Positions 28,317 through 47,493 of a stretch of 64,000 nt of DNA are shown in pieces. Under the pieces are notes generated by a model, which was not told the origin of the DNA, made no database searches, and worked only from the letters and a program-made list of their open reading frames with translations. The stretch comes from Bryoerythrophyllum caledonicum (Eukaryota > Streptophyta > Bryopsida > Pottiales > Pottiaceae): contig OZ020526.1 in NCBI GenBank assembly GCA_963971425.1, positions 6,785,976 through 6,849,975 on the forward strand, read 5' to 3'. A program made the translations under genes and the position numbers. Each line of letters starts with the position of its first letter. Position 1 is the first letter of the stretch.

Positions 28317-29431
28317 CGGATATGTCCTCCTTTAGCGTCAATCATTGCTTGTAACCTTGAGGGCATAGAATGACAAAAGGTAGAGGCACCCAATTCCGAT
28401 CGGCCACCCAATTCCGATAAGTAGAATATGCATGGCATCGTGTATGAAAATGGCAAATGCTTAAAATGGTGCATGAAGTGACCCAAAATCGATAACTCAA
28501 AATTCAAAAACACTAGTCATTATTGGCATTGGGTCTAGATGTGTGCAATTTTGGGTTGCTCCACCTCAATTGAACTCTTACTGGTGGCATTGATTTGAAA
28601 GTCAAACAAGGCCGATCGCCATTGAGTACCTCCATGAGTTGGTTATCCATGGCATTTCTTCTCTCTTTTACTCACTCTCACTTGTTGGCATTGGGTGAAG
28701 GAAGGCACCAAATCTCACCTACTCTAGAGTTTGATTATGGACTGTAGTGGTTTTTGGGCTTTTAAATTCTATATCAATTCCAAATCTTTGTGATTAAATT
28801 TGAAAAAATATTTGTTGAGTTTCATTCCTAACTCCGCATCGTTCTATACAAATATTTTTGACATACATTGTCATTTGAGTCCTGAACTAGCTTAAGTGAT
28901 CGAAATTGGGTGCCTCTATCTTAGTTATAGGAGCTTAGTACCACTGAGCAAATTCCACTCTCTTTAAAGAACTACCTTCAACACTTCTAAGTTTCTAGGG
29001 CATTCCTTGCCATGTTTCTAGGGCATTCCTTTTAGCATCCTTTAGACATTCTCAATTGGATTGAGATTGGGAGAGTTTGGAGACCAATTGAGCTTTTCGA
29101 GTTGGTGGGTTTGTCTCCATTCTTCACATGTTTGTTGCAATGGACAAGTGCGCCATCTTTCATAAGCTCTCCTTTTTGAACTCTTTTCATGAAATGAATC
29201 AATTCGCCATCCTAGACCACTTCCACAAAATCCTTAGCAGAATGTCAACTTTTTGGCATGAAGACAAATTGTGACTTCTGTCCTCCTGCAAATGCACCCC
29301 AAATCATCAAAAATGTCTGTCAACTTTTAAAAGTAGGAACTATACAACTTGATTAATAGCGCTCATATGCACTTCTCCAACTATAAATTTGCCGAAATTT
29401 TTTTCGAGTCTCAAAAGTAGATTCAAATGTC
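28317..29431 (-). pseudogene. Tc1-like transposase remnant, C-terminal part
   Basis: Nucleotide similarity to the transposase at 45780-46320 is clear on both sides of an inserted MITE. Examples are the stretches around 28320-28380, 29040-29110, 29200-29290 and 29330-29431. No open frame survives and the DDE motifs cannot be read. The gene continues after the 12-kb insertion at 41462. Confidence 0.65.
28383..28916. mobile_element. TA-flanked MITE, 534 bp
   Basis: GAGGCACCCAATTCCGATC at the left end is matched by GATCGAAATTGGGTGCCTC at the right end. TA lies on both sides (28381-28382 and 28917-28918). It interrupts the Tc1-like transposase remnant. The TA duplication fits the Tc1/mariner superfamily. 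It has no coding capacity. Confidence 0.8.
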
Positions 29432-29798
29432 TGTCAGGATCGGCGCATGGAGGTGTTTGTATAGATGGTATTCGGATAGAAACCATCTAGAGAGTTGTGG
29501 AGTTACCGGAGAGCCCAAGACTTAGTGCTAATGGGAGATTAGGGTTAGGTTTAGTGCCGCGTGGCGGCTAGGGCAACCGTGGTGTCTTTCGACACCTCAT
29601 CTCGGGACTTGGAACCCGGGTGACCTCCACGTGTGGTTGAGGGAGACTCATCTTTCTCAAGTTGAGTCTCCCACGTGATGAGGTGAGGGTGTGTGCGTGT
29701 TGCACATCGTTAGCCTCATCCATATCATGTTTTCACTCTTGAAGAGTGGCATGGACTTGACTTGTTGTGATTTGTGAGTGTTTATCACTTATTTGTTA
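29432..29798 (+). repeat. Terminal repeat A1 (5' end of the 12-kb element)
   Basis: The 367-bp repeat is identical by eye to 40865-41231. It starts TGTCAGG directly after the target duplication. After 29798 the sequence departs from what follows A2. It contains a perfect 10-bp stem (GGGAGACTCA at 29641-29650, TGAGTCTCCC at 29663-29672). No tRNA primer-binding site starting TGG was found directly after it. Confidence 0.85.
29641..29672 (+). repeat. Hairpin inside terminal repeat A (also at 41074-41105)
   Basis: A 10-bp perfect stem with a 12-bp loop is present in both A copies. It could act in RNA folding, termination or packaging; the role is not known. Confidence 0.5.
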
Positions 29799-30582
29799 CT
29801 TGAGAAAGATCATGTTGTGGAAATCGGTGTAACCACAACATTATGTACATCTAAATGTGGTTTGGAGAACCTTGCTTAAAATTTGTGTTTGGACACGAGG
29901 GTTTCTAATCTCTAGAAGTAGAGGGGTTGGAGGTTTCGACCTATTAGTGAGCCCAACGGCGCGGCGTGGGGTTTGAGCATGTCGATGACGAAGTAAGAAG
30001 ACCAACTACTAGAGGTGCTACTCCAGCAGAACGAACCAGAAGAGAGTCGGAGTTTGGGGAGCTTGCGGCGTTGAAGCTGCAGAAGCGGAGCACACTCTTG
30101 GAGTTATGGATGCTGCGTCGCACCTGATGCCGTGTTAATCTGTCCTTCAACCGACGTTGGTGGATGCTGTCTGAGTACTTGAGCGACTCGAAGGTGTTGG
30201 GCGACAAGTGCATGACTCCAGTTGAGATCGTGACTAGCAGCTTGATACAGGAGCCTTCTCACATGTTGTAGGAAGGTGTGTGTGCGAGGGAACGAAAGAG
30301 TTTGAGAAATAGACTTCTACTGGAATGGAGCTCTGCGAGGCGGCGTGATTAGGAAGGCTGTGAGTGCCGGAGTTTCACGCAAGTTGGAGACAGAGGGGTC
30401 GGAAGCAGTCTGGACGAAGGCGAGTGAGCGCGGAGCTGCTGCGAGAGGCGGTGTTCGGCAGGAGCTGGCCGCCGGAAGCGGACCTGGTATCGGAACCCGC
30501 AGGGATAGCAGCAGCGACGACAAGGTGGTCCTGGGAGAGGACGAGGATCTCGTGGACATTGCGAGTTCGGCGCACAACGGTG

Positions 30583-30858
30583 CAGGAGCGTATCAAGACG
30601 ACGCAGAAGGGTACGATCACGTCGGTGCAGGCGAGCTACGTGCCGGCGGACGACTTGACGGATCCTGCTCTGGCGACGACGTTCGACCATCTGCAGGCAA
30701 CGACGACGCTGTCCCGTCAGATTTCGGAGCTGGGTATCTACCCTGCGATAGGCCCTCTGGATTCGACTATCTACTACTGCGCGCGTGACGTACAGAAGGT
30801 GCTGCAGAATTACAAGAACCTCCAGGACATCATCACAATTTTGGGATTGGATGAGCTG
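30583..30858 (+). pseudogene. ATP2: Captured fragment of mitochondrial-type ATP synthase F1 beta subunit
   Basis: One open plus frame (30364-30900) contains about 90 residues that are unmistakably from ATP synthase beta: [54 protein letters not shown] and [15 protein letters not shown]. The words SRQISELG and [14 protein letters not shown] mark the mitochondrial, not the plastid, protein. About a dozen residues expected after PLDST are missing in frame. The sequence stops resembling the protein before 30583 and after 30858. No nucleotide-binding P loop is included, so it cannot work as a subunit. It is in the sense direction of the element and has no intron, which suggests capture from a transcript or a single exon. 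Confidence 0.85.
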
Positions 30859-32059
30859 CAGCGGTTGTCGGGAGTTCTGCGTTTGTGCTGTCCACCTTAG
30901 AGACCTAATGTGGTCACAAGCAAGGTTGACGGAGTTGCTGGGATAGACGGTGGTACGGCGCTCGAGAAGGATTGCTTCTACTGAAGAGTGATCGTTGCTC
31001 CTACGTTGGTGTATGTTTGTGTCGGTGGTGGAGTGGGGAAATTATTTCACCTGCCCGGGACGTGAGGAGCAAAGTTTCCATTTGTGCCGCCAAACGCAAT
31101 TTCGGCACAACTGAGTTGCTTGAGAACACAACTGAGTTGTAAAACATCTCTTTCACCGGTTGCTGGAGGGGGTGATCCGCTTTTCGCACGAGTTGGAGTG
31201 GTTCTTCCAGAGGTGTTACTCTCGATCCTTGTATTTTTCGCTGTCAACTGTGGTGTCTTCGGCGACATTCGAGCATCTGCTGGTGTATGCTGGTTTTGGA
31301 GCACCCTAAGTGCATGCGGTGCTTGAAGTTGGTGGCCGTATTTCGTTAGGAGAGAAGCACGGTCTGGTGCGGGAGGATGTTGCCTATGGTGGCTGCCCTG
31401 GAAGCTGGAGAAGTGGAAGAGGACCGGACGTCGACGAGAAGCGACGGTGGTGCTGCATGTCGTGGACACTGAGGGCACAGCTTGAAGGAGGATCTCCAAT
31501 ATTGCTGCGGCTTGGGAGAATGGCCTGAAAGAGGGTTCTTCGTTCACCGAAATTGGGGTCCAGAGGATTGTTGAGGTGAGTTGCCTCTTCAATTGTGCGT
31601 GCTATTCCATGGATGTGAGTTTGTTCACTTCTGGCATCTTGTGAATTTTTGTGGTGCTTTGGTGATGCGGAAGCGTTGCCAAAATTTCGTTGGAATTGCA
31701 TATTGCAATTGTTTCAAGGTTGTTCAATTGTCTCCATGTGAGAATGATACATGCTTGAACACATGATAGCCTTTGTGCACATGTTAGTGCAAGATCTGCC
31801 CGTTTCTAGTGATTTTGATCACTTAGAATTTTAGGGTGTTATCCTAGGACTTTGTGTGGTTTTAGAGAAAAGCCAGCTTCTTTTATGTGGCATTATAAGG
31901 CTTTGATTGAATTTAGGGTTTTCTCTAGGAGTAGCTAGTGGTAGCTATTTGAAGGCCCAAGACAACTTCAACAAGGTAACGTATCCGGACCCGCGTTGGG
32001 AGGGGGTAGTCGGTTGCTTGGGGGAGTGACAAGTTTGTATGTTGCATCTTGTTAGTAAG

Positions 32060-32325
32060 TGGTGAAAGTGCGGGAGAGCGGGTGCCATAGTCACCTTCTT
32101 CTTGCTCTTCGTCATTCTTGTAAGAGGTGAAGGTGTGGGATAGTAGGTACCATTGTTGCCCACTTCTTACCCTTGCCAATTTGCTTGTGAGAGTGATTGG
32201 AAGAGTTGTGGGATATTGGGTGCCATAGTCACCTTTTTCTTGCACTTTGCCACCTTTGGGGAGTGACTAGTAGAGGTATGGGATGGTGAGTGACATTGTC
32301 GCTTTCCTCTTGTACTTCGTCTAGA
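32060..32325 (+). repeat. Tandem repeats of ~65 bp in the retroelement leader
   Basis: Four degenerate units are each built around GTGGGATA...GGTGCCATAGTCACC followed by a CTTCTTCTTGC-like pyrimidine stretch. They lie about 200 bp before ORF1. Confidence 0.6.
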
Positions 32326-32549
32326 AATTTGGATTATGGGGATCATGTATGGCTAGACTTTGGGTTGTTCTCATCAAATTGTTGTGCACACTGTTGATGT
32401 GTTGCATCACGTGAGCTAAGTGTGGCATATGATAGTGAACAAAAAGTGAAATTCTAGCATTCCCCTAATCTAGCATTCCCCTAACATCCATTGTGAGCCC
32501 ACTTAATACAACCACATAAAAAGAGTGGGTTGCATTGAGCATATGGGAC

Positions 32550-33191
32550 ATGGATAGTGGAGGAAAGAAGAAGGAATCAAAAGAGTCTAGTGCATCCACG
32601 GTAGAGATCAGCACCGAAACCCTTAGTCAATTGATTACTTGCCTCCAAGATTTGCAAGTTAAATCTTCATCTTCCCAGGCAAGCTCTAGTGGTAGGGATT
32701 TTGAGTTATCTCCTATAGCCAAGTCTCGAACCGGGACTCAAAACTTGCGAAAACCAGGCACGAAGGTGCTAAGCGAAGAGTCCGTGAAGTATTGGACTTC
32801 ACTTGGTGGGGTGCGCAAAGTTCGAGCGCTTCGGGCTAAGGAGGGTGTTCGAGCTCCTCTTTGTCGTGCACGAGGCCAAGTTGAAGCCGTGGATCTTGTG
32901 GTTGGAGAGAAGGCCGTTGTCCTCAAGAACGTTGGGTCAAGATACACCGTGGAGGTGGTGGATTTCCGCCGAGGGAACCAATTGCCCACGTTCTCCCTCA
33001 TCTTTACCGAGTTTGAGAGTGAAGGCTTCGTATTTCATACTACGTGGCAGTGGGAAGTGGGTACGTGGCGAGAGCGGGCCAGCAGTGTGTGGGACACACT
33101 CACGTTGGAGCTACTCGATTGGGAAGTACCACCCACCATCTACGCTCCGGAGAAGAAGGGCACTCATGAAGCATGGTGCTTCTTTGATTGA
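32550..33191 (+). CDS. ORF1 of the 12-kb element, unrecognised
   Basis: The frame opens at an ATG at 32550 and runs for 213 codons to TGA at 33189-33191. The N-terminal 60 residues are Ser/Thr/Lys-rich and look disordered, with a short leucine-rich helix (LSQLITCLQDLQ). The rest (from about residue 75) is Trp- and Arg-rich (VKYWTSLGG, TTWQWEVGTWRERA) and looks folded. No domain is recognised. It lies just before Gag in a different frame. The Gag frame is open from 33097, so the two overlap by about 95 bp. It could be the N-terminal part of Gag joined by a frameshift, or a separate accessory protein. Codon and GC usage match the following Gag-Pol, which supports real coding. Confidence 0.55.
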   Translation: MDSGGKKKESKESSASTVEISTETLSQLITCLQDLQVKSSSSQASSSGRDFELSPIAKSRTGTQNLRKPGTKVLSEESVKYWTSLGGVRKVRALRAKEGVRAPLCRARGQVEAVDLVVGEKAVVLKNVGSRYTVEVVDFRRGNQLPTFSLIFTEFESEGFVFHTTWQWEVGTWRERASSVWDTLTLELLDWEVPPTIYAPEKKGTHEAWCFFD

Positions 33192-33427
33192 GCTAACCAA
33201 TTCTCAATCTGGAGACGTGGAAGGGGCCCGGTTTCACTCGGAGAAACACCCCATTTGCGGTAGGCGTTCGTGAACGAGTGGTGGAGGAAGTTACCACTCA
33301 ATCGAAGGAAGAGGAGGATACGGTTCAACCGATAGTAGAAGAACGTGAGTTTGTGGTGGAATCTTTGGTACGTAGTGCAAGTTCCCCACCAAGAAAACCT
33401 TTGCAATCAATTTTTGATTGGAAGGAG

Positions 33428-35386
33428 ATGGCTTCACCATATGGAGGAGGAGGAGAACGGGGGGTGCGACGGTTTTCGGGTGCCACGGGCACTATCGAAG
33501 CGGATGACTTCAAGAGGGAGTTCACCATGTGGTGTGAACTCCAGAAGTCTCGCAACCCCAACTTCAACCCTTACATGGTGTGGAGGGCGTTATTTGGATG
33601 TCTAGAGGGAGCTCCGTTAGCGGATTATGGAGAATTCGAGGCGGCTCACCTCACAGAGATATTGGCATGGAGGGATTTCTATGCACCGAATTACGCGGAT
33701 GTATTCGGCGGAGCGCCGAGTGTGCCATCACGTGTGGGAAAGGGGAAGCAGGAGGAGGGCACGAGTGGTGCCGAGGACTTGAGCCAACCGATGGAAACGG
33801 TGGCTATTCCACCTCCGTTTAATCCTACGGCCATGTTCTTCACACAGATCCGTCGAGACTATCAAGGTCAACGGGCGGATAAGATGAAGGCATTGAGGTC
33901 TTTTGCGCGAGGAGGAGATGAATCCTTGCGAGAAGCTCATGCGAGACTGCGGAGACTGATTTCTGCCACTCGCGGAGTCACGGAGCAGCAAGCGGTGCAG
34001 CACTGGTACAGCATCCTAGAGAAGGAGTTGAAGACTTTAGTTCGCAATGAGGCATTGCGATTGGGTGAGCCACCGACTTTGAGATTTGTATTCGAGACTT
34101 CCGAGAGAATTGAGATCAATTTATTGGAGGAGAAAGCGGCCATGGGATTTCTCAAACGTGAAGAGAAGATTCCTGAAAAGGTCAAGGTGGCCAAGGCTTC
34201 GGTTTCCTCCTATGCCACCGACACTGAAGCATTATGCTTTAGTTGTGGCAAACCAGGGCATTTGAAGAAGGATTGCAAGGAAAGTAAGTCATCTACCCCT
34301 CAAACCGGTGGCTATTGCTCTGGTTGTGGTGCCAAGGGGCATTCCGAGGCGAAGTGTTGGAAGCTTCACCCGGAGTTGAAGCCTTCTGGAGGCAAGGGAA
34401 CCAAGGCAAGCAACAAGGAGAACGAGTCCAAGTCTTCGGGAGGAGACAAGAAAGGTTGGAAGGCCAAATTCGCGGAGTTGGAGGCTAAGATGGCGGTCAT
34501 GAGCGCGAATGCTGCTTCAGTAAGTGAGAAGCCCCAAGTCACTCCTAGTTTTCATGCTGGGGGCGGGTTTAGGCCCGAAGATGACGAATTCGGGGACTAT
34601 ATGCTAAGTGGCATGGCACTTGCTATCACGGATGGCTCACGGGAGGCTTATGCCCTTACGCGGAGTCAAACACCGGTGACGAAGGAGGTTCCACGTGGAG
34701 CAAGTCCAACCTTGGATCCTCAACATGGAAAGGACAACCGGCAAGCTCGATTGCCAGAGTCTTTCACGTTGGAGGAGATGGTGCCAACATCTTCCATGGT
34801 GCCTCCAACGCGTCGGGGGGTGTCAACAACTCGTCCTACCGTTGGGATTGTAGAGCCACCAACTAAGGTGGTGAGAGAAGCAGCAAACGTGGTTTGTGAG
34901 GCTTTATTATTTTCTGCTAAATTGATGTCACAAGAGGGCTTCAATGCAGCGGCGGTCTTCAAGATGGCGGCTCAAATGTGTGAGTCGGGTGACTCCACGG
35001 GCGTCAATGCGTTGAAGACGGAAGTGATTGAAGGAGAGGTGGATAAGAGTCAAGAGGACAACGTGGAGGGGCTGCTTTCAGCAGCTATGCGTGTCAAGAC
35101 CATGGCCGCCAGACCTGCAATCGAGAGGTCATCCATTACACCTGGTGTGGTGGTGGTTGACAACTCCCAGGGGATTTTCCAACTTGTTGGGCCCAAGGGG
35201 AGGGTATTTGTGCCTCGACGAGTGCTTTTGGATTCAGGAGCTCAACCATTGATGCTGGGAGCATCTGCCCGTGAGGGGTTGGGTTTGACTGGGGACACTT
35301 TGGAGAAGTGTCCATGGACAATTAGCACTTCCATGGGGGGTACGGAGCATGCTACAGGCATCACAAAGGAAGAGTTGATTTTATGA
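33428..35386 (+). CDS. gag-pr: Gag with two zinc knuckles and aspartic protease
   Basis: The frame is open from 33097, and its first ATG is at 33428. The first third contains a retrotransposon-Gag-like helical region (LTEILAWRDFYAPNYADVFG and, later, LREAHARLRRLISATRGV). Two CCHC zinc knuckles follow at 34235-34276 (CFSCGKPGHLKKDC) and 34316-34357 (CSGCGAKGHSEAKC), which bind genomic RNA in the particle. A Lys/Ser-rich linker leads to a retropepsin-type active site, LLDSGAQ, with Asp at 35231. The frame ends in TGA at 35384-35386 inside the protease domain, but continues open in the same frame. The stop is one C-to-T change from an Arg codon. Whether it is a mutation or is bypassed cannot be told. 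Confidence 0.85.
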   Translation: MASPYGGGGERGVRRFSGATGTIEADDFKREFTMWCELQKSRNPNFNPYMVWRALFGCLEGAPLADYGEFEAAHLTEILAWRDFYAPNYADVFGGAPSVPSRVGKGKQEEGTSGAEDLSQPMETVAIPPPFNPTAMFFTQIRRDYQGQRADKMKALRSFARGGDESLREAHARLRRLISATRGVTEQQAVQHWYSILEKELKTLVRNEALRLGEPPTLRFVFETSERIEINLLEEKAAMGFLKREEKIPEKVKVAKASVSSYATDTEALCFSCGKPGHLKKDCKESKSSTPQTGGYCSGCGAKGHSEAKCWKLHPELKPSGGKGTKASNKENESKSSGGDKKGWKAKFAELEAKMAVMSANAASVSEKPQVTPSFHAGGGFRPEDDEFGDYMLSGMALAITDGSREAYALTRSQTPVTKEVPRGASPTLDPQHGKDNRQARLPESFTLEEMVPTSSMVPPTRRGVSTTRPTVGIVEPPTKVVREAANVVCEALLFSAKLMSQEGFNAAAVFKMAAQMCESGDSTGVNALKTEVIEGEVDKSQEDNVEGLLSAAMRVKTMAARPAIERSSITPGVVVVDNSQGIFQLVGPKGRVFVPRRVLLDSGAQPLMLGASAREGLGLTGDTLEKCPWTISTSMGGTEHATGITKEELIL

Positions 35387-35875
35387 CTCAACGAAGATGA
35401 CGTCGAGGATGCAAGCTTTATGAAGGTGAAAGCTATAGTAACGGAGGCCAAGTCATACGATGTCTTGGTGGGCTCGGCGGTGCTATACCCCATGGGGTTC
35501 ACCTTGGATTTCTGGGAGGAAATCGCAAGTTATAGACCAGGATGGCAAGCAGGAGATGGGCGGAAGGCTCAGCTGCCAGCTCGTTTTATTCGAGTTCTGA
35601 CTGGCAATCTTGCAGACGTGTTTGCCTTCTCAGGAGGTATGGATGTGGGACCATCATGGTTTCACAAGGGTTGTGATACTTTCTCGATGGATACTCCTAC
35701 ACTTCACGAGATGGATGCCCAAGTGGGTGACACAAGTGGTGGAGATACAGAGACGTATCAACCTGGCATAGAAGCAGCGTGGAGGACCACGACTCAACTT
35801 CAGAAGGATGCGGCACAGGTCATTGAAGATGCTTGGCAGCATTCGATACTCCCACAATCGGAAGATGATTCTTGA
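35387..35875 (+). CDS. Continuation of protease domain and linker
   Basis: This is the same frame as Gag, starting after the TGA at 35384. It includes YDVLVGSAVLYPMGFTLDFW (about 35456-35515), which fits the second half of a Ty3-type protease (the ILG/LG-like motif before the C-terminal strand). About 120 residues of acidic linker without a recognised domain follow. It ends in a second in-frame TGA (35873-35875), immediately before the methyltransferase. It has no ATG of its own in a sensible place, so it is part of the Gag-Pol polyprotein and not a separate gene. Confidence 0.6.
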   Translation, partial: LNEDDVEDASFMKVKAIVTEAKSYDVLVGSAVLYPMGFTLDFWEEIASYRPGWQAGDGRKAQLPARFIRVLTGNLADVFAFSGGMDVGPSWFHKGCDTFSMDTPTLHEMDAQVGDTSGGDTETYQPGIEAAWRTTTQLQKDAAQVIEDAWQHSILPQSEDDS

Positions 35876-37276
35876 GTGGACCAAGACTTGGGCCGACGTC
35901 TAGACACTTCCACCATTCAGTGGAAGGTACCAGAGGATGGTATTGTGTTGTTGGAGTTGTTCGGAGGGATTGGAAGTGGCTTGGCGGCAGTGCTGCAAGC
36001 AGGGATGAAGGTCAAACGCTACATCTACGTAGATGTTGATGAGGCAGCAAGGCACGTGGCTAAGCGGCATTCACGGCGATTGAGGACCCAATTTCCAAAC
36101 TTGTTGGCCACTAGTGCCATCAAGACTTCATTTTCTACTCTTGTTGGTGATATTGCTTTGCTTTCAGTAGAGGATATTCAACGTGTTGGCCATGTGGACC
36201 TTGTCATCGCGGGATGGCCATGTCAAGGATTGTCAATGGCTGGACATCAAAACGGGTTGAAAGACACTCGTTCTTCGCGGTTTCATGATATGATTCGGGT
36301 ATTGTCTTTGCTTCAAACCTCTCAGAAGCGACCACCAGGTTACATTGTGGAGAATGTACCAGTGATGAGTAGCTCGAGGTCGAGGACATTAGAGGGCATG
36401 CACCGCATACACCAGACTCTGGGTATGCCCGTATTGTTGGATGCAGCTGCGGTGGGATCGCGAGCACATCGCCCGCGATTGTGGTGGACGAATTTAGCAC
36501 CTCAAGAGTTGTTACAGTCCGTTGTGGGTCGAATTAAACGGCCGGATGTCTACGTGAGTGATATTTTGGATCCTCACAGGGCACCGCGGCGCGTTTATCA
36601 TGACGACCAAGCACCTTTGGCGGTCGTCAACCGCAAAGGAGAACCACGTAGGGCATTGCCCACGTTGGTTAGTTTTGCTCGGTCGTATGCCTTTAAGGAT
36701 AACGGCCCGGGTCTTGTGTGGGATTCCTTGTCTCAAGAGATGGTGGAGCCTAATGCGGATGAACGGGAGAGAGCCATGGGATTTTCCACGGGCACTACCG
36801 ATGCACCCGGGATCTCGGAGCAACAACGGCGATTTTTACTTGGGCAAGCGATGGACTTAAATTGCTTGACGTGGATCGTTTCGTTGCTAGTGGCTGAACA
36901 GAAGCGGTTGGCTTCTAGTTTTACTGGTTACATGGGGTCTTATGAGTTGCGGGCGGCCGGAGAACCATTTGTCTCTGTTAAGGTAACAGGCAAAGTGGTT
37001 GGGGGCGAGAAGGCCTTGGCACCTCACCCATGGAATATGTGGAGCTCCGCGAACCTTTTCGCGACACCCAAGACTGAGGATCCTCTTCATGGAGTGAAGG
37101 ATTGGAACCGAAGTAGGGAATTGGCCCACCAAACGAAGGATTTGGAGGAGGCTGTGTTCGTGGGAGAACACACAGCTCACCAAAGGGAGAGAATTGGCAA
37201 ACTATGCCAATTGGAAGGACTTAGAAGCTTGGTGGAGGTGGAAGGAGAGGATTCTCCTTCGCATGGCATCCAATAG
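35876..37276 (+). CDS. C5-cytosine DNA methyltransferase domain within Pol
   Basis: The enzyme transfers a methyl group from S-adenosylmethionine to cytosine C5. Its catalytic motifs are present in the usual, unpermuted order (residues from 35876). Motif I is LLELFGGIGSG (25-35). Motif IV is GWPCQGLS with the nucleophile Cys116. Motif VI is VENV with Glu159. Motif VIII is GSRAHRPRLWW (194-204). Then come a GFSTG motif (302-306) and motif X-like RRFLLGQAMDL (318-328). The AHRxR form of motif VIII and the LLG motif near the end recall the DNMT3 group. No BAH, CXXC, UBA or PWWP domain is seen. It lies between protease and RT in the polyprotein frame. The coding end is TAG at 37274-37276, followed by CAACCA. 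C5 methyltransferases in LTR retroelements have been reported in a charophyte alga and in dinoflagellates (from memory). Confidence 0.93.
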   Translation: MDQDLGRRLDTSTIQWKVPEDGIVLLELFGGIGSGLAAVLQAGMKVKRYIYVDVDEAARHVAKRHSRRLRTQFPNLLATSAIKTSFSTLVGDIALLSVEDIQRVGHVDLVIAGWPCQGLSMAGHQNGLKDTRSSRFHDMIRVLSLLQTSQKRPPGYIVENVPVMSSSRSRTLEGMHRIHQTLGMPVLLDAAAVGSRAHRPRLWWTNLAPQELLQSVVGRIKRPDVYVSDILDPHRAPRRVYHDDQAPLAVVNRKGEPRRALPTLVSFARSYAFKDNGPGLVWDSLSQEMVEPNADERERAMGFSTGTTDAPGISEQQRRFLLGQAMDLNCLTWIVSLLVAEQKRLASSFTGYMGSYELRAAGEPFVSVKVTGKVVGGEKALAPHPWNMWSSANLFATPKTEDPLHGVKDWNRSRELAHQTKDLEEAVFVGEHTAHQRERIGKLCQLEGLRSLVEVEGEDSPSHGIQ

Positions 37277-38527
37277 CAACCAAGGAAGGAGAATCCTGCT
37301 CCAAAGGAACCGAAGGAGGCGGTGACCAAGGATACTTGGAAACCGATGGTAGGCCTGGCGGATGGAGCAGTTGAGAGAGAGGAACATGAGTTCCTCAGGG
37401 AGTACTTAGATTGTTTTGCCTTTAGTCTTGAAGATCTTGGAGTATTGAAAGGGCAAGAAGTACATATCAATTTGACGGACAAAGCACCAATATACCGGAA
37501 GCCGTACAAGTATAGCAACGTTGAACGGAGGATGATACGTGCTCGTACGGAGGAGTTGGTGGCTGCGGGGCTAGTGGAGTTGGCTCCACCGGATTGCGAG
37601 TATGCATCGGCGACGGTTATGCCATCCAAGAAAGATATCTACGATAATTGGACCGAGAAGAGGATGTGCGGGGACTATAGGAGGATTAACAAATTCACCA
37701 AGTCGGATCGTTATGCGATGCCAACGCCGGAGGAGAACTTTGAGGCTATTGGTCACGCCAAGGTATTTAGTACGTTGGACTTGCGCTCTGGATACCACCA
37801 GATTGGACTGAGAGAGGAAGACAAGGAGAAGACCGCGTTCTGGGGCATTGACAAAGATGGGAAGGACCGGTTGTTCCAATGGAAATTCTTACCATTTGGA
37901 TTGAAGAATGCCCCTGCCGAATTCCAGAGGGTTATGGACCGAGTATTCTCGGGCTTGGATTTCGTGAGATGCTACATTGACGACATCGTTGTCTTTAGCA
38001 CGAATCGAAGGCAACATAGGCTACACTTGATGGAAGTGTTTGCTAGATTGAGGCTCCACGGTTTGAAGTTGCACCCTGGTAAGTGCAAATTCTACTTTGA
38101 CCGCATCGAGTACTTAGGCCACATGATATATCCAAGTGGATTGGGTGTGGTAGCTAGTAAAATTGAAGTAGTGATGTCTATTCCTAGACCAAGGGATATT
38201 AGTAGGCTACGTGCATTCTTGGGGTTGTGTAATTACTATAGAAAGTTTGTGAAGACTTTCAGTGCTATTGCCAAGCCATTAACCATGTTGACAAGGAATA
38301 ATCAACCTTGGATATGGGGAGATGAGCAAGAGGTGGCCTTTCAAGAGTTGAAGGACCGTTTGGCATCGGCACCTATACTTCGAAGGCCAATAGCCGGAAG
38401 GACATACCAGCTACACACAGATTGGAGCGCATTGGGAATTGGTGCGGTGTTGACGCAAATGGATGACGACGGGAAGGAGTTTGTCATTGCGTACGCCAGC
38501 CGGTCCAACAATAATGCGGAGGCCTAG
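37277..38527 (+). CDS. rt: Ty3-type reverse transcriptase and start of RNase H
   Basis: This is the same frame as the methyltransferase, after the TAG at 37274. Ty3/Gypsy RT blocks are complete: MCGDYRRINKFT, FSTLDLRSGYHQI (first catalytic Asp), LPFGLKNAPAEFQRVMD, CYIDDIVVFS (YIDD encoded at 37973-37984), KCKFYFDRIEYLGHMI and LRAFLGLCNYYRKF. RNase H begins at about 38400 with HTDWSALGIGAV (first Asp at 38420). The frame is cut by TAG at 38525-38527. The flanking peptide there (NNNAEA, then YSSYEGECLAA) is the conserved RNase H region around the catalytic Glu. The TAG replaces a normally coding codon and is one C-to-T change from a Gln codon. Confidence 0.92.
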   Translation, partial: QPRKENPAPKEPKEAVTKDTWKPMVGLADGAVEREEHEFLREYLDCFAFSLEDLGVLKGQEVHINLTDKAPIYRKPYKYSNVERRMIRARTEELVAAGLVELAPPDCEYASATVMPSKKDIYDNWTEKRMCGDYRRINKFTKSDRYAMPTPEENFEAIGHAKVFSTLDLRSGYHQIGLREEDKEKTAFWGIDKDGKDRLFQWKFLPFGLKNAPAEFQRVMDRVFSGLDFVRCYIDDIVVFSTNRRQHRLHLMEVFARLRLHGLKLHPGKCKFYFDRIEYLGHMIYPSGLGVVASKIEVVMSIPRPRDISRLRAFLGLCNYYRKFVKTFSAIAKPLTMLTRNNQPWIWGDEQEVAFQELKDRLASAPILRRPIAGRTYQLHTDWSALGIGAVLTQMDDDGKEFVIAYASRSNNNAEA

Positions 38528-40402
38528 TATAGCTCGTATGAAGGGGAGTGTTTGGCTGCCATATGGGCAATTGCTCATTTTCGATGTTACCTTTATGGTA
38601 ACGAGTTCTTGTTAGTCACGGATCATCAACCTTTAAAGTGGTTGATGGAGTCTGACAAACTAACATGCAAGCTAGCGCGGTGGGCCTTGATGTTGATGGA
38701 ATACGACTTCAAGGTGGTGCACAGAGCGGGATTGGTGAATATGGATGCCGACGGCCTTAGCCGCAATCCAATTCCAAACCAAGCGGATGCTACGGGCGCT
38801 AGGTGGCACGGGGAGGATGAAGCCGATCCGTTACCAGGTTGGCATAGTTCGGCCTTTCTAAGTGTATTGGCGATGCGTAGAGATGACACCGGAGCTTCTA
38901 CTGTAGCCACAGTAGATGAGGATGGCGGTGAAGAATCTGGGGGCGCCAAAGACATCTTTGAAGACACGAACGTGATGCATTTTCTAAAGAATGGAGAAGT
39001 GGTGCTTGTGTGGTCCGCTAAGGAGAGAGATCGGGTCTCACAACGAGCCAAACGGTTTGTGTGGGAGAGGATTCACCTTGTGAGGGTGTGGCCGGATGGC
39101 ACGCGAAAGGTTGTGCCAACTCCATTGGAGAGAGTGAAGCTCATCAAGGACACGCATGAAGACCTTGGGCACTTTCGAGTGCGGAGGACTTATAGCTTGC
39201 TCCAGCTTCACTATTGGTGGCGAGGTATGCAAATTCAAGTTCAAGCCTTGATAGCCCGGTGTATGATTTGTGATCGTGTGCGAGCGTCTTTTAACGCTCC
39301 GATGCCACAATTGCAACCATTGCCAATTATGGGCTTGGGATATAGATGGAGCTTAGATTTTGCTGGTCCGTTGCCAGTGACACCTCGACACAACAAGTAT
39401 GTATTGGTGATGATCGAGCACTTCTCGAAATGGATAGAGTTGGTGGCGTTGCCTGACAAGTTTAGTGAGGGGGCCGCTTACTCTTTTCTCGATCGTGTAT
39501 TGAGCCGCTTTGGAGCTCCAGCGGAAGTTCTCACAGACCAAGGAAGGGAATTCTTGGGTGAGTTTCAAACGTTGTGTGAGCAAGCGATGATAGATCACCG
39601 CACTACTTCGAGGGATCACCCCGAAGCGGATGGCTTGGCGGAGCGCATGGTGCAAACCGTCAAGAGGGGGCTTCGGAAGTATAGTTTGAAGAAGGGACAT
39701 CATCAAGATTGGGACTTGCAATTACCGTGGATAGCTATGGGCTACCGGTTTAGCAAGCAAGCATCTTTGGCGTCCTTTTCTCCTTACTTCTTGTTGTTTG
39801 GAAGGCAACCGGTATTACCGAAGGCCATTCAGGCGGATGCTGACACCGTGTTGGCTAACATGGACAATCCAGATACGTGGGCTCAAGTGTGTGAGCAACG
39901 TGCGGATTTGTTCAAACGGGTGATGCCTATGGCATTGGAGAATCTTTCCATTGCTCAACATCGGGATACGTTGCGTTATGCTACAATACGGGGAGGAGGC
40001 TACCGACCGCAAGTGCGACGGTTTACTCCTGGAGACTATGTGTATTTGCAGCAAGCAGCGCCCACCACCTTGGATGTGACAGCGGGACGGGTGATCTTGC
40101 GAGTTCGTGAGGTGAAGCACTCAGGAGTGTTACTGTTGGAGGGCCGTGATGGTAAGATATGGAAGGATCACACACGCAATTGCGCTCCTTGCCATTTACC
40201 ACACATTGATGGAACAGTAAACCCTGGTATTTCTCACATCTCCTCTGGATTGCGATGTCAATTGTGTGGTAGTGCCAAACGGGCAGCCACAATGGTCATT
40301 TGTGACTTGTGTTCTACGGGGTGGCATCTAGAATGTCTAACCCCACCTCTTCTAGAGGTACCAGTAGGTCAATGGTCGTGTCCAAATTGTTTAGCACATT
40401 AA
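38528..40402 (+). CDS. int: RNase H, DDE integrase and C-terminal PHD finger
   Basis: The frame continues from the RT after TAG 38525. The rest of RNase H holds EGECLA (Glu), VTDHQPLKWL (Asp) and NMDADGLSR (last Asp). The integrase begins at about 39140 with the HHCC zinc-binding domain (HEDLGH..., CMICD). The DDE core follows: SLDFAGPL (Asp 39356), LTDQGREF (Asp 39536) and DGLAERM (Glu 39641), with 34 residues between the last two by my count. After a basic C-terminal domain, residues at 40256-40390 form a PHD finger instead of a chromodomain: C-x2-C-x11-C-x2-C-x4-H-x2-C-x14-C-x2-C with Trp two before the seventh Cys. The stop is TAA at 40400-40402. This segment has no internal stop. The domain calls are firm. 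Confidence 0.92.
   Translation, partial: YSSYEGECLAAIWAIAHFRCYLYGNEFLLVTDHQPLKWLMESDKLTCKLARWALMLMEYDFKVVHRAGLVNMDADGLSRNPIPNQADATGARWHGEDEADPLPGWHSSAFLSVLAMRRDDTGASTVATVDEDGGEESGGAKDIFEDTNVMHFLKNGEVVLVWSAKERDRVSQRAKRFVWERIHLVRVWPDGTRKVVPTPLERVKLIKDTHEDLGHFRVRRTYSLLQLHYWWRGMQIQVQALIARCMICDRVRASFNAPMPQLQPLPIMGLGYRWSLDFAGPLPVTPRHNKYVLVMIEHFSKWIELVALPDKFSEGAAYSFLDRVLSRFGAPAEVLTDQGREFLGEFQTLCEQAMIDHRTTSRDHPEADGLAERMVQTVKRGLRKYSLKKGHHQDWDLQLPWIAMGYRFSKQASLASFSPYFLLFGRQPVLPKAIQADADTVLANMDNPDTWAQVCEQRADLFKRVMPMALENLSIAQHRDTLRYATIRGGGYRPQVRRFTPGDYVYLQQAAPTTLDVTAGRVILRVREVKHSGVLLLEGRDGKIWKDHTRNCAPCHLPHIDGTVNPGISHISSGLRCQLCGSAKRAATMVICDLCSTGWHLECLTPPLLEVPVGQWSCPNCLAH
40256..40390 (+). other. PHD finger domain at the integrase C-terminus
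   Basis: The eight ligands are C4HC3 with normal PHD spacing and the WSC signature before the last Cys pair. PHD fingers commonly bind the histone H3 tail. In chromoviruses a chromodomain at this place steers integration to marked chromatin, so a targeting role is a reasonable inference. Confidence 0.85.
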
Positions 40403-40632
40403 GAGTCTACGTAGACAAGGTCTAGCCATTAAAAGTGTTAGAGGCGATTAACGATGGGGCTCTCATTGCACCCGGCCTATCCTTTGTCTACATGGTCTAT
40501 TAGTGTCTTTTCTATAGGTCACCTTGATTTTTCTGGACTTGAGAGGTTTTCATGCTCGGTCGATCATACACTTTACGTTAATTGTGTGGTTCGCCGGTGT
40601 GAAAGGGACTTCAGCACAGGCGAAGGGGGCGA

Positions 40633-40862
40633 GTAAAGGGGTCCTTGTAGACCAATTACTAAATGTTATGGTCTGGGTATTTATTTCTTTTTCCCTAGCC
40701 TAGGTTGTTGGAGGTTGTTAGTTTCTTTTGTGAACTATTGTTTTCGTTGTTTACGGAGGCAACGGTGATAGTATAGTCACCATTGCTCCGAGTTTGCCTC
40801 TAATTGTGCGCTCTCACCTGTTGGCACGATGTTATCTTTGCACGATGTGTTTGTGCACGACA
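40633..40862 (+). repeat. Terminal repeat B1 of the 12-kb element
   Basis: The 230-bp repeat is identical by eye to 41232-41461. It is directly preceded by a purine tract (GAAGGGGGCGAG, about 40622-40632) that looks like a polypurine primer for plus-strand synthesis. It ends CACGACA and is followed by GC and then repeat A2. The junction forms the perfect palindrome GACAGCTGTC at 40859-40868. Confidence 0.85.
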
Positions 40863-40864
40863 GC

Positions 40865-41231
40865 TGTCAGGATCGGCGCATGGAGGTGTTTGTATAGATG
40901 GTATTCGGATAGAAACCATCTAGAGAGTTGTGGAGTTACCGGAGAGCCCAAGACTTAGTGCTAATGGGAGATTAGGGTTAGGTTTAGTGCCGCGTGGCGG
41001 CTAGGGCAACCGTGGTGTCTTTCGACACCTCATCTCGGGACTTGGAACCCGGGTGACCTCCACGTGTGGTTGAGGGAGACTCATCTTTCTCAAGTTGAGT
41101 CTCCCACGTGATGAGGTGAGGGTGTGTGCGTGTTGCACATCGTTAGCCTCATCCATATCATGTTTTCACTCTTGAAGAGTGGCATGGACTTGACTTGTTG
41201 TGATTTGTGAGTGTTTATCACTTATTTGTTA
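40865..41231 (+). repeat. Terminal repeat A2 of the 12-kb element
   Basis: The 367-bp repeat is identical by eye to A1 at 29432-29798, including the 10-bp-stem hairpin (41074-41105). It is followed without a gap by B2. Confidence 0.9.
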
Positions 41232-41461
41232 GTAAAGGGGTCCTTGTAGACCAATTACTAAATGTTATGGTCTGGGTATTTATTTCTTTTTCCCTAGCCT
41301 AGGTTGTTGGAGGTTGTTAGTTTCTTTTGTGAACTATTGTTTTCGTTGTTTACGGAGGCAACGGTGATAGTATAGTCACCATTGCTCCGAGTTTGCCTCT
41401 AATTGTGCGCTCTCACCTGTTGGCACGATGTTATCTTTGCACGATGTGTTTGTGCACGACA
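41232..41461 (+). repeat. Terminal repeat B2 of the 12-kb element
   Basis: The 230-bp repeat is identical by eye to B1 at 40633-40862. It ends CACGACA at the junction with the target duplication TGTC. A2 plus B2 form a 597-bp unit with TG...CA ends. Confidence 0.85.
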
Positions 41462-41740
41462 TGTCCAAACAATACGCTCCTACTCTTCTGGACTACAAGT
41501 CTACATCCACGGTACTTCTCAGCAAAAGCTATCCGTTGAGACATGTGAGGGGGTATCAAGAAAGGTTTCTTGATTGATATTCAACTAAAAATACCACTTT
41601 TATGTAATACCCTTTGAATAATACGTCTACAGACTTGAGTATGCATTATATGGTTGAGTACGACCTTAATGCGAGCACAAATTTCCTATATAATGCAACC
41701 TATAATGCGAGCACAAATTTCATCTGAAATTGCCATTTTG
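41462..41740 (-). pseudogene. Tc1-like transposase remnant, N-terminal part
   Basis: This is the continuation of the remnant at 28317-29431 beyond the 12-kb insertion. It is similar to 46310-46450 and, at 41690-41730, to the start region at about 46725-46757 of the second copy. The middle part of the gene (the DNA-binding region) is deleted. No open frame is left. Confidence 0.6.
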
Positions 41741-45194: not shown

Positions 45195-47493
45195 CAGTAG
45201 ATGGACAAAAAGTTTGGTGTTTGTGCATTCGAGCAAAAGAATAAATCAAGTTTGCAATCTTTAAAAATGCACTTGAGGCACAAAAATTATCTCCTACCTA
45301 CCAGATTTGGAACTTGGGTTCTTTTATAAGCTGATCACATGTCCTCAAAGTTTTGTGGCATAATTATTTACCAAATTGGTTTTATAGCCAATTTATCAAC
45401 TAGTACCCATTTCAGTACCTTTAGTCACTAATATTAGTGTAAATTTTATACAATGAGGAGAATAAAGAATTTAAACACCAATGAATGAACCTCATTTATA
45501 TTCTAATATATTATATTTGACTTGGTTGACATCATGAAGCATCAATCATTGCCTAGTTGGCAGTTTAGAAAACACTTAAAATGTTGTCAATTGCAAAAAT
45601 AATGCTTGACATTTGAAAGTTTTTCAAAGGCACATAAATTGTTTTCTAATCCTATAAATAGGATTTTATATTCATCTATAAGTTAATTATGTAAGCACAA
45701 ATTTTGGTATCCTAAAAATAGGTAAAAATGATTTATTGCAAATTTATCAATGCATATGCCCTCTTCTAGCCTCAATCACAAATTCTAATCTAGCTAGCAT
45801 TGAATGACATAAAGTTAGAAGTTGACTACTACTAACTAATGTCCACTCTCTTTGTAAAGTTGCCTTCAACTCATATAAGGACTTGGAACTCGATTGGCCA
45901 TGTTGGACTCCACTTTTTAAAAACTTCTAGACATTCTCTAGTGGATTGAGATCAAGACTATATGCAGGCCATACAAGCTTCTCTACAAGGGGTAATTTTC
46001 TCCATTCTTTAGGAGCTTTACTTTGATGCACTGTAGCTCCATCTTCCATAAGTATAGCATGTGAGACTTGGCCCATAAATTGAAGCAAATGGCCATCATA
46101 GACCAACTCCACAAAATCAATAGCTCTGCAACGATCCTTTGGCATAAACACAAGCTCTAATTTTTTTGTCTCCTCCAAACCCTCCCCAAATCATGAGAGA
46201 TGTCCTCCCACTCTTAAAAGTGGGAATTACACAACTTGATGAATATCGCTCATATGCCGTTCTCCACACATGAATTTGCCTTGAAACTTTGCCAATTTCA
46301 AATGTAGATTCATTTGTCCAACAAACACGCTCCCACTCTTCGACAATCCATCCACAATATTGTCTTGCAAAATGTAGCCGCCACGACACATGAAGAGGTG
46401 TCAAGAAAGGCTTCTTCACCGCAATTCTACTAAAAATGTTGTAGTCATGCAAAACACGGCAAACAGTCCTAGCACTCACATCCACATGGCAAGCATTGGT
46501 GATATCTTGAAGTGATGATCGACGATGAGTTTTGGAGAAAAATAAAATTTGACGAACATCCCTCTCACTAAGTTTCTTGGGTCTTCTAGTGCTTAAATTT
46601 GCCTGGTAATTTTCATGCTCTCTAAATCAAAGAATCATGAATCATTCTTTGCACTGTCTTACTTGACTCTCCTACAATTCTTGCAATAACTAGCACAACC
46701 CATTCCCCCCTCACTCATTCCCACTAGCGGGCACGAATTTCATCAGGAATTGTCATGATTGTCTTCAATCATACTGATTGCACGTAAGCAAAGAATCTAG
46801 CTTATTGAAGCAATAGAACAAATCACCAAGCCAAATCTCAAATCAACTAAGTGGCTTCTCATTGCTCAACAGGGGGACTAAGTGCTCAACATTACTAGTC
46901 ACCCACCAGTCACTCACTAACTGAAGCCAATCAAACCTTTTTCACCCACCAATTTTGATCTTGCAAATCCTCATTATCTTCATCAACTCTCTACTCCTCT
47001 CTTATCTCACAATTGCAACTCAATTCATGTCAACTTTAACAAGTTGTGTGGTCTAAACTGCAAAGGTAATGTTGCTTATTTAACCAAATTATTGTTATTT
47101 TCAAACTAACACATCAAATGTTTTTAGGACAAGTGGAAACTCAAAATTGACAAGTGGATGATGTGTTTGTGAAACATCTACGTTAAACAAAGCATCCATG
47201 ACAATATTTTAATTTTAGAAGCATGAGGTGTCTGATTCTCTTCAACATTTAGAAAGTACCTTCTAATTCATGTTGAAAAGGGTACTAGTTGGTAAATTAG
47301 CTATAAAACCATTTTGATAAATTATTATGCCACAAAACTTTGCAGACATGTAATCAGCTTATAAAAGAACCCAAGTTCCATATTTGGTAGGTAGGGGACA
47401 ATTTTTGTGCCTTTGGTGCATTTTAAAAGATTGCAGACTTGATTTTTTCTTCTGCTAGAATGCAAAAACGCCAAACTTTTTGTCCCCCTACTA
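45195..47493. mobile_element. Second Tc1-like element, 2.3 kb
   Basis: The left end CAGTAGATGGACAAAAAGTT and the right end (complement TAGTAGGGGGACAAAAAGTT) open inverted repeats of about 230-250 bp (45195-45440 and 47270-47493). TA follows the right end at 47494-47495. The left end is separated from the end of the first Tc1-like element by only TT. It contains a broken transposase on the minus strand. Confidence 0.75.
45927..46757 (-). pseudogene. Tc1-like transposase, broken
   Basis: The minus strand starts MTIPDEIRAR at 46757, a typical start for Tc1-like transposases of this kind, then meets a stop. Two longer open segments follow. 46485-46117 includes the catalytic region with WTNESTF and LMIWGGF. 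46178-45927 includes MEDGATVH (second Asp) and PAYSLDLNPLEN (the final Glu motif). The first catalytic Asp is replaced by Asn (AAT at the complement of 46312-46314). Together with stops and a frame change near 46150 this makes it inactive. It would have cut and pasted the element at TA sites. Confidence 0.8.

Follow-up and report, generated by a model that had tools for sequence, protein, structure and literature searches.

The stretch analysed here, called the window throughout, comprises 64,000 nt of the forward strand of contig OZ020526.1 (positions 6,785,976-6,849,975) in assembly GCA_963971425.1 of Bryoerythrophyllum caledonicum, a genome of 437 Mb; all coordinates below are window positions, and all features lie on the forward strand. 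It carries a Ty3/Gypsy-type retrotransposon bounded by split direct repeats. A1 (29432-29798) forms the left integrated terminus and is identical over 367/367 positions to A2 (40865-41231), while B1 (40633-40862) is identical over 230/230 positions to B2 (41232-41461), which forms the right integrated terminus. Such base-by-base identity bears out the split repeats reported in a first-pass annotation made from the sequence alone, together with their order, A1-B1-A2-B2; that annotation left out a 2-bp spacer, GC (40863-40864), which separates B1 from A2. A starts with TGTCAGG and B, in both copies, finishes with CACGACA. A single shared base makes the outer border of A (29431/40864) and the inner border of B (40632/41231) ambiguous.

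The element is flanked on both sides by TGTC (29428-29431 and 41462-41465). Once joined, its flanks align across the join to another place in the window, 46074-46437 (72% over 378 columns), a relative which we take to be Tc1-like solely on the label given to it by the first-pass annotation. TGTC occurs there once and at the flanks of the element twice, and the target duplication is therefore 4 bp long. A duplication had indeed been proposed before, at a length of 4-5 bp; its presence holds, its length is 4 bp, and the survey of other insertions reported below agrees.

The interior encodes the domain set of Ty3/Gypsy elements, i.e., a gag CCHC knuckle, reverse transcriptase (RT), RNase H and an HHCC and DDE integrase. 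Its open reading frames (ORFs) start with gag (33278-35386), where a domain search found the CCHC knuckle and where the start of a protease-like region (DSGAQ) was recognised by eye. The same frame continues at 35420-35875 and is followed by a cytosine-5 DNA methyltransferase, matched as PF00145 and located in the pol frame (35876-37276). Domain and protein matches then identify RT with the first part of RNase H (37322-38527) and, in a last ORF (38552-40402), the second part of RNase H, the integrase and a C-terminal PHD finger. The best match of the integrase in PDB is Ty3 Gag-Pol (7q5b), followed by foamy virus integrase, and its catalytic residues are D269, D329 and E364 in the numbering of the 38552 ORF, so that the complete HHCC/DDE integrase claimed earlier is indeed present. 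No tyrosine recombinase (PF00589) was found among the 10 ORFs of at least 150 aa in the region of the window element.

The borders of the repeats coincide with further sequences. Exactly at the A1/interior border lies a putative primer-binding site, CTTGAGAAAGAT (29799-29810), with a 7-bp hairpin directly 3' of it (29814-29839). B-GC-A contains the reverse complement of this site a single time (12 nt, A position 219); this candidate self-primer, ATCTTTCTCAAG, lies at 29650-29661 in A1, with a second copy at 41083-41094 in A2. A polypurine tract, GGCGAAGGGGGCGA (40619-40632), stands directly 5' of B1. Finally, the junction between B1 and A2 holds a 10-bp palindrome with CA on both strands, GACAGCTGTC (40859-40868), which contains the GC spacer and is the proposed internal site of integrase.

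Other copies were sought in the genome, as the first-pass annotation had recommended. For family 1, the group to which the window element belongs, a search with A yielded 873 candidates, the best 40 of which were scored and all read, and a search with the interior/B junction yielded 912, the best 40 of which were scored; here and for the other groups, scored samples represent the best-scoring copies and are no census. The 40 A copies comprise 25 of the form flank-A-interior, 14 of the form B-GC-A-B and one solo A-B, and none of them shows A-B followed by interior. At the 40 interior/B junctions, 24 run on into A-B and 16 go directly to flank, and neither an interior/A junction nor a tandem interior was found among them. 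The junction CACGACA-NN-TG is intact in 22 of the 24 right ends that continue into A-B; B2 is cut short in one of the 24 (L061), three bases are lost at the junction in another (L075), and a third (L033) is an array. Plain LTR-interior-LTR copies (LTR, long terminal repeat), which the first-pass annotation had named as evidence against its reading, amounted to 0 among these 40 A and 40 interior/B places.

Far ends of unpaired family-1 copies were fetched where the contig reached (the partner of L038 came from the interior/B search), so that both ends were read for 26 insertions, of which 13 have A2-B2, 12 lack it and one is the solo A-B. Comparison of their termini, also proposed earlier, revealed an exact 4-bp target duplication in 24 of the 26, at the lower limit of the 4-6 bp typical of Ty3/Gypsy elements. 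The interior adjoins A1 in all 13 insertions that have A2-B2, and the direction of the arrangement is thus strict. A1 and A2 differ on average by 0.63% within elements vs 1.81% between elements, and the B copies by 0.44% vs 1.87%; being closer within than between elements, A and B behave as LTRs do. Recurrence across the genome excludes the one-off aberrant insertion that the first-pass annotation had entertained. The wider class of one-off rearrangement, nested insertion or misassembly, in favour of which no observation was made and which is refuted by 26 insertions on many contigs with distinct flanks, 24 of them with exact duplications, and by further right ends, is improbable in the extreme.

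The same organisation extends to diverged relatives. An integrase search, in which the best 71 of 6403 candidates were scored, revealed a second subfamily, whose ten sampled right ends belong to matches with 90-92% protein identity. Of these ends, seven read B-GC-A-B and three B-flank; where alignable, their A and B share just 71-78% identity with those of the window, and the GC spacer and the palindrome GACAGCTGTC are unchanged in 7/7 junctions. A third family was found through a search with P0128, whose integrase is 53% identical to that of the window and which is the query behind the family-3 identities (integrase 56-57%, RT 61-63%). All ten family-3 right ends read interior-B-GC-A-B, with a B of 106 bp and an A of 356-359 bp, and the palindrome is kept in 8/10 junctions. 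At the best 40 of 1536 candidates of a family-3 interior/B junction search, a second B lies downstream in 36; the remaining four consist of three B-flank and one B-GC-A. By spacing, no A-B-GC-A-interior-B arrangement was seen among 40 scored family-3 A copies; A copies one LTR apart occurred only in an array, C202, whose interior is upstream of both. Exact 4-bp target duplications flank 4/5 family-3 insertions. The elements form at least three diverged groups, and the A-interior-B-GC-A-B order is an old family trait.

Conservation of the borders gives these repeats their meaning. CTTGAGAAAGAT is exact in 24/25 aligned family-1 left ends and also occurs in L055; its complement lies within a hairpin of A, where the surrounding 261 nt fold with a z of -4.3. 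Three left ends of the second subfamily, obtained from four stretches, start with the same primer site, and the self-primer motif lies at A position 220 in 5/5 copies checked (12 nt). Family 3 has a different site, ACTTGACAAAGAC, at the A1/interior border in 5/5 left ends read, and this site is complementary to family-3 A at position 182 over 13 nt, in a different hairpin. A chance match of one 12-mer within 600 bp has a simple probability of about 4e-5. Because the sequence of the primer site changes while complementarity stays, these comparisons constitute strong evidence that the minus strand would be self-primed at the A1/interior border. Priming by a transfer RNA was considered and rejected from the site itself, no search against a tRNA set having been made: the primer sites used by such RNAs have a TGG-type start, which is lacking here, and the self-complement is exact. 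The hairpin that follows the family-1 primer site is also maintained, with compensatory changes among copies, both sides having changed in 5/7 pairs and a covariation score of 0.390 that was reached by 0/500 shuffles; sliding the partner by 1-3 columns gives only 0.067-0.192.

Self-priming is established among LTR elements, Tf1 and sushi being examples. The present elements resemble this group as it is defined in the relevant part of PMC2864245, with a primer site just past the repeat and complementary to the element's own repeat; they differ in that the self-primer is embedded in a strong hairpin of A, at A position 219 (family 1), 220 (second subfamily) or 182 (family 3).

At the other border, GGCGAAGGGGGCGA is exact in 33/43 family-1 right ends, the others having substitutions, the tract of the second subfamily is exact in 8/9 ends whose border was read, and that of family 3, CTAGGGGGGGCA, is exact in 9/10. 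In each of the three families, B1 is hence immediately preceded by a purine tract. With a primer site at the end of A and a purine tract at the start of B, the LTR of reverse transcription should be B-GC-A (599 bp), its U3 starting with B1 and its U5 side ending with A1. The placement of both sites fits this LTR and not the integrated ends, which suggests that the reverse-transcription LTR is out of register with integrated ends at the start of A and the end of B. An LTR of the form A-B, with the interior inserted in one LTR, was rejected: no A-B-interior-A-B copy was seen, and the primer site and the purine tract would be misplaced. The first-pass annotation had already suggested a B-A LTR at the transcript level, with the purine tract before B1 as primer, and an integrase acting at the B-A junction of a two-LTR circle. 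Its model is partly supported: the conserved purine tract, the self-primer site at the A1/interior border and the palindromic B-GC-A fit it well, and the circular or joined form is one that we still infer.

Taken together, these elements are likely to be Ty3/Gypsy-type retrotransposons whose reverse-transcription LTR is out of register with the integration ends, and whose joined A-B complementary DNA (cDNA) is opened at the upstream palindrome. Ordinary reverse transcription would make a linear B-GC-A-interior-B-GC-A molecule, the raw ends of which would be joined, A to B, leaving the joint seen as A2/B2. Within the upstream LTR, integrase would then cleave each strand of the palindrome 3' of CA, a single staggered cut producing two recessed CA-3'OH ends with 2-nt 5' GC overhangs, i.e., canonical 3'-processed ends. 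Loss of the overhang GC from the inserted product would leave A-interior-B-GC-A-B within a 4-bp target duplication, and opening the joined A-B form at the upstream palindrome gives exactly this order. We infer the end joining, the cut at the palindrome and the direction of that cut from the arrangement of the integrated copies. The upstream palindrome may be preferred because, if reverse transcription follows its textbook course, the upstream LTR is the first to become double-stranded.

A related reaction has been described for foamy virus, whose integrase cleaves a palindromic two-LTR junction to yield 3'-processed ends with 2-nt 5' overhangs, as reported in the part of PMC1180852 that concerns this cleavage. 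Each system has a palindrome carrying CA on either strand, where one cut would give both processed ends. The foamy virus palindrome, as presented there, forms at the LTR-LTR joint, whereas that of the present elements is inherited inside the LTR and the A-B joint lies elsewhere.

Several observations weigh against this explanation. A two-LTR circle opened at random predicts A-B-GC-A-interior-B insertions in equal number; since none was seen among the 40 family-1 A copies or, by spacing, among the 40 of family 3, random opening is contradicted by the strict direction and a directional step is needed. Spacers vary, 25 family-1 elements having 20 GC, 3 AC, 1 CC and 1 three-base loss, and one of the 20 elements with GC has a substituted B end; likewise, 1/10 family-3 junctions has a GT spacer and another a substituted A start. 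The spacer variants, which break the palindrome (AC in three, CC, GT and the three-base loss), are at L057, L067, L071, L034, L075 and L099. Two of the 26 family-1 duplications are not exact 4-bp repeats (GCTG/ACTG and a possible 6-bp TAGTGT), nor is 1/5 in family 3. The minimum distance of A and B between elements is 0, so that identity within an element is not always distinctive. Lastly, A2-B2 is missing from 16/40 family-1 right ends, among them C607, which shares its flank with another and is probably a second assembly of the same insertion, and the terminal branches of copies without and with A2-B2 are alike (medians 0.0058 vs 0.0055, p 0.95, n=11 and 13), a test of low power with its 24 elements. 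Slow later deletion predicts longer branches for the A-interior-B copies.

The repeat order itself recalls PAT, Ngaro and VIPER elements, whose A1-interior-B1-A2-B2 split direct repeats go with a tyrosine recombinase in the descriptions drawn on here (PMC4157794, PMC6681497). The present elements share these repeats and could conceivably replicate in a PAT/DIRS-like manner, an integrase substituting for the recombinase: an RNA from A1 to B2 would be copied, A2/B2 included, its ends would be restored with the internal B1-GC-A2 as a splint, and a new B2-A1 junction would be opened. This scheme would explain both the strict direction and the near-perfect A2/B2 joint, which has no indel in 25/25 family-1 elements (one substitution) and in 7/7 of the second subfamily. 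Nonetheless it is unlikely, as it offers no reason for A to end at the self-primer site and B to start at the purine tract, and this in three families. The integrase is of the DDE type, the ten longest ORFs encode no tyrosine recombinase, and target duplications of 4 bp are present; to our knowledge, DIRS, PAT and Ngaro elements make none. In addition, 2/30 family-3 elements (L091, L123) contain a single additional base precisely where A2 meets B2, and the A1 of neither element has it (L103, L125). Such extra bases seem to fit end joining better than copying, small as their number is.

For the A-interior-B copies, we favour a later deletion between B1 and B2, to which these copies would most likely be due, insertion of one-LTR circles being the other possibility. 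In a variant of the joined-cDNA explanation that is compatible with it, A-interior-B is also a primary product, made from a one-LTR circle or from linear cDNA cut at both palindromes; only two-LTR molecules would then give A-interior-B-GC-A-B, with enzyme and site unchanged. This variant is a tentative possibility, in line with exact 4-bp duplications in 11/12 A-interior-B insertions with both ends read, with the lack of any detectably greater age of these copies in family 1, and with their abundance (16/40 in family 1, 3/10 in the second subfamily). Yet A-interior-B is rarer where B measures 106 bp than where it measures 230 bp, with 3/40 in family 3 and 0/10 in the set fetched first. Recombination between B1 and B2 predicts a lower fraction with a shorter B; this comparison is suggestive only, as the family-3 copies sampled lie nearer to the query used (99-100%) than those of family 1 (97-100%) and age is confounded with B length. 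An earlier Fisher test on smaller numbers gave 19/50 vs 0/10 without A2-B2 (p 0.023). Moreover, A-interior-B copies could presumably make no repeat-bounded transcript, and unequal exchange between B copies should yield, as its reciprocal product, arrays with additional GC-A-B units. Two arrays of this kind were encountered, L033 (C9:22325023-22328388) with two extra units and C202 (C202:1985-3317) with one, and they perhaps arose from unequal B x B exchange or from multi-LTR molecules.

The present elements are like Ty3/Gypsy retrotransposons in their gag CCHC, RT, RNase H and HHCC-DDE integrase, 4-bp duplications and TG...CA ends, and unlike them in that the LTR-interior-LTR order was not seen and that, measured against the integrated ends, the reverse-transcription LTR is permuted. 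A split-repeat Gypsy arrangement is already published. KnitGypsy-Dnmt3 of Klebsormidium nitens combines Gypsy domains with DIRS-like repeats and has a methyltransferase of the Dnmt3 type in pol (de Mendoza et al. 2018, PMC5890265). It resembles the present elements in its Gypsy pol, cytosine-5 methyltransferase and DIRS-like order, and K. nitens proteins also show the integrase-PHD fusion; the assignment to the Dnmt3 class belongs to the K. nitens element. The section on this element mentions neither a primer site nor a purine tract, spacer, palindrome or target duplication, and it proposes no mechanism (PMC5890265). In our literature searches for prior descriptions, to which this statement is confined, only PMC5890265 matched the combination. 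The reading of the borders, the palindrome, the duplications and the mechanism are added here, and the GC spacer, self-priming, strict direction and A-interior-B copies also go beyond the first-pass annotation.

In LTR elements, the ends of the LTR are at once the points where DNA synthesis starts and stops and the substrates of integrase. Here the ends of synthesis and of integration appear to be separated by sequence, the primer site, the purine tract and the palindromic integrase site each being recognisable. It seems, on balance, probable that this long-lived lineage has uncoupled its reverse-transcription ends from its integration ends and integrates routinely via an end-joined two-LTR form, through an inherited internal palindrome. 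If so, what counts as a dead-end DNA form in retroviruses would be a productive substrate here, and the split-repeat architecture would have arisen in these elements independently of tyrosine recombinases. Such a second route to an architecture otherwise read as a sign of tyrosine recombinases might also explain the DIRS-like repeats of the Klebsormidium Gypsy element, and these elements would provide a natural system in which to test whether integration can proceed productively from two-LTR forms.

The PHD finger ends the integrase protein at about 40.2-40.4 kb of the window, a C-terminal place where many Gypsy elements carry a chromodomain. Relatives with the same integrase-PHD fusion exist in Klebsormidium, Calypogeia and many unnamed proteins, and two K. 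nitens integrase-PHD proteins match the window query at 53%, over 50% and 73% of its length. The named protein relatives come from Calypogeia, Riccia, Marchantia, Klebsormidium and Closterium, the first three being liverworts and the last two charophyte algae.

The single pol frame of the window copy holds four in-frame stops: TGA at 35384, where the gag ORF ends, TGA at 35873, TAG at 37274 after the methyltransferase and TAG at 38525 within RNase H. Given the identity of A1 to A2 and of B1 to B2, either this copy has transposed recently in a defective state or its stops arose only lately. Among the 71 scored copies of the integrase search, 37 have no stop inside the integrase match.

The interior leader (approximately 29860-32400) has contents of its own. 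An ORF at 30364-30900 holds an ATP synthase alpha/beta fragment (PF00006, E 2.5e-12), perhaps a captured gene piece, and four imperfect 61-nt direct repeats with a spacing of 65-73 nt lie upstream of gag at 32054-32322. The first 760 bp vary strongly between copies, 12/25 family-1 left ends (loci L002-L039) sharing at most 268 bp with their best partner. In contrast, the fetched family-1 copies are 95-100% identical to the window element in A, in B and at the integrase end, and the leader looks like a region whose modules are exchanged or captured.

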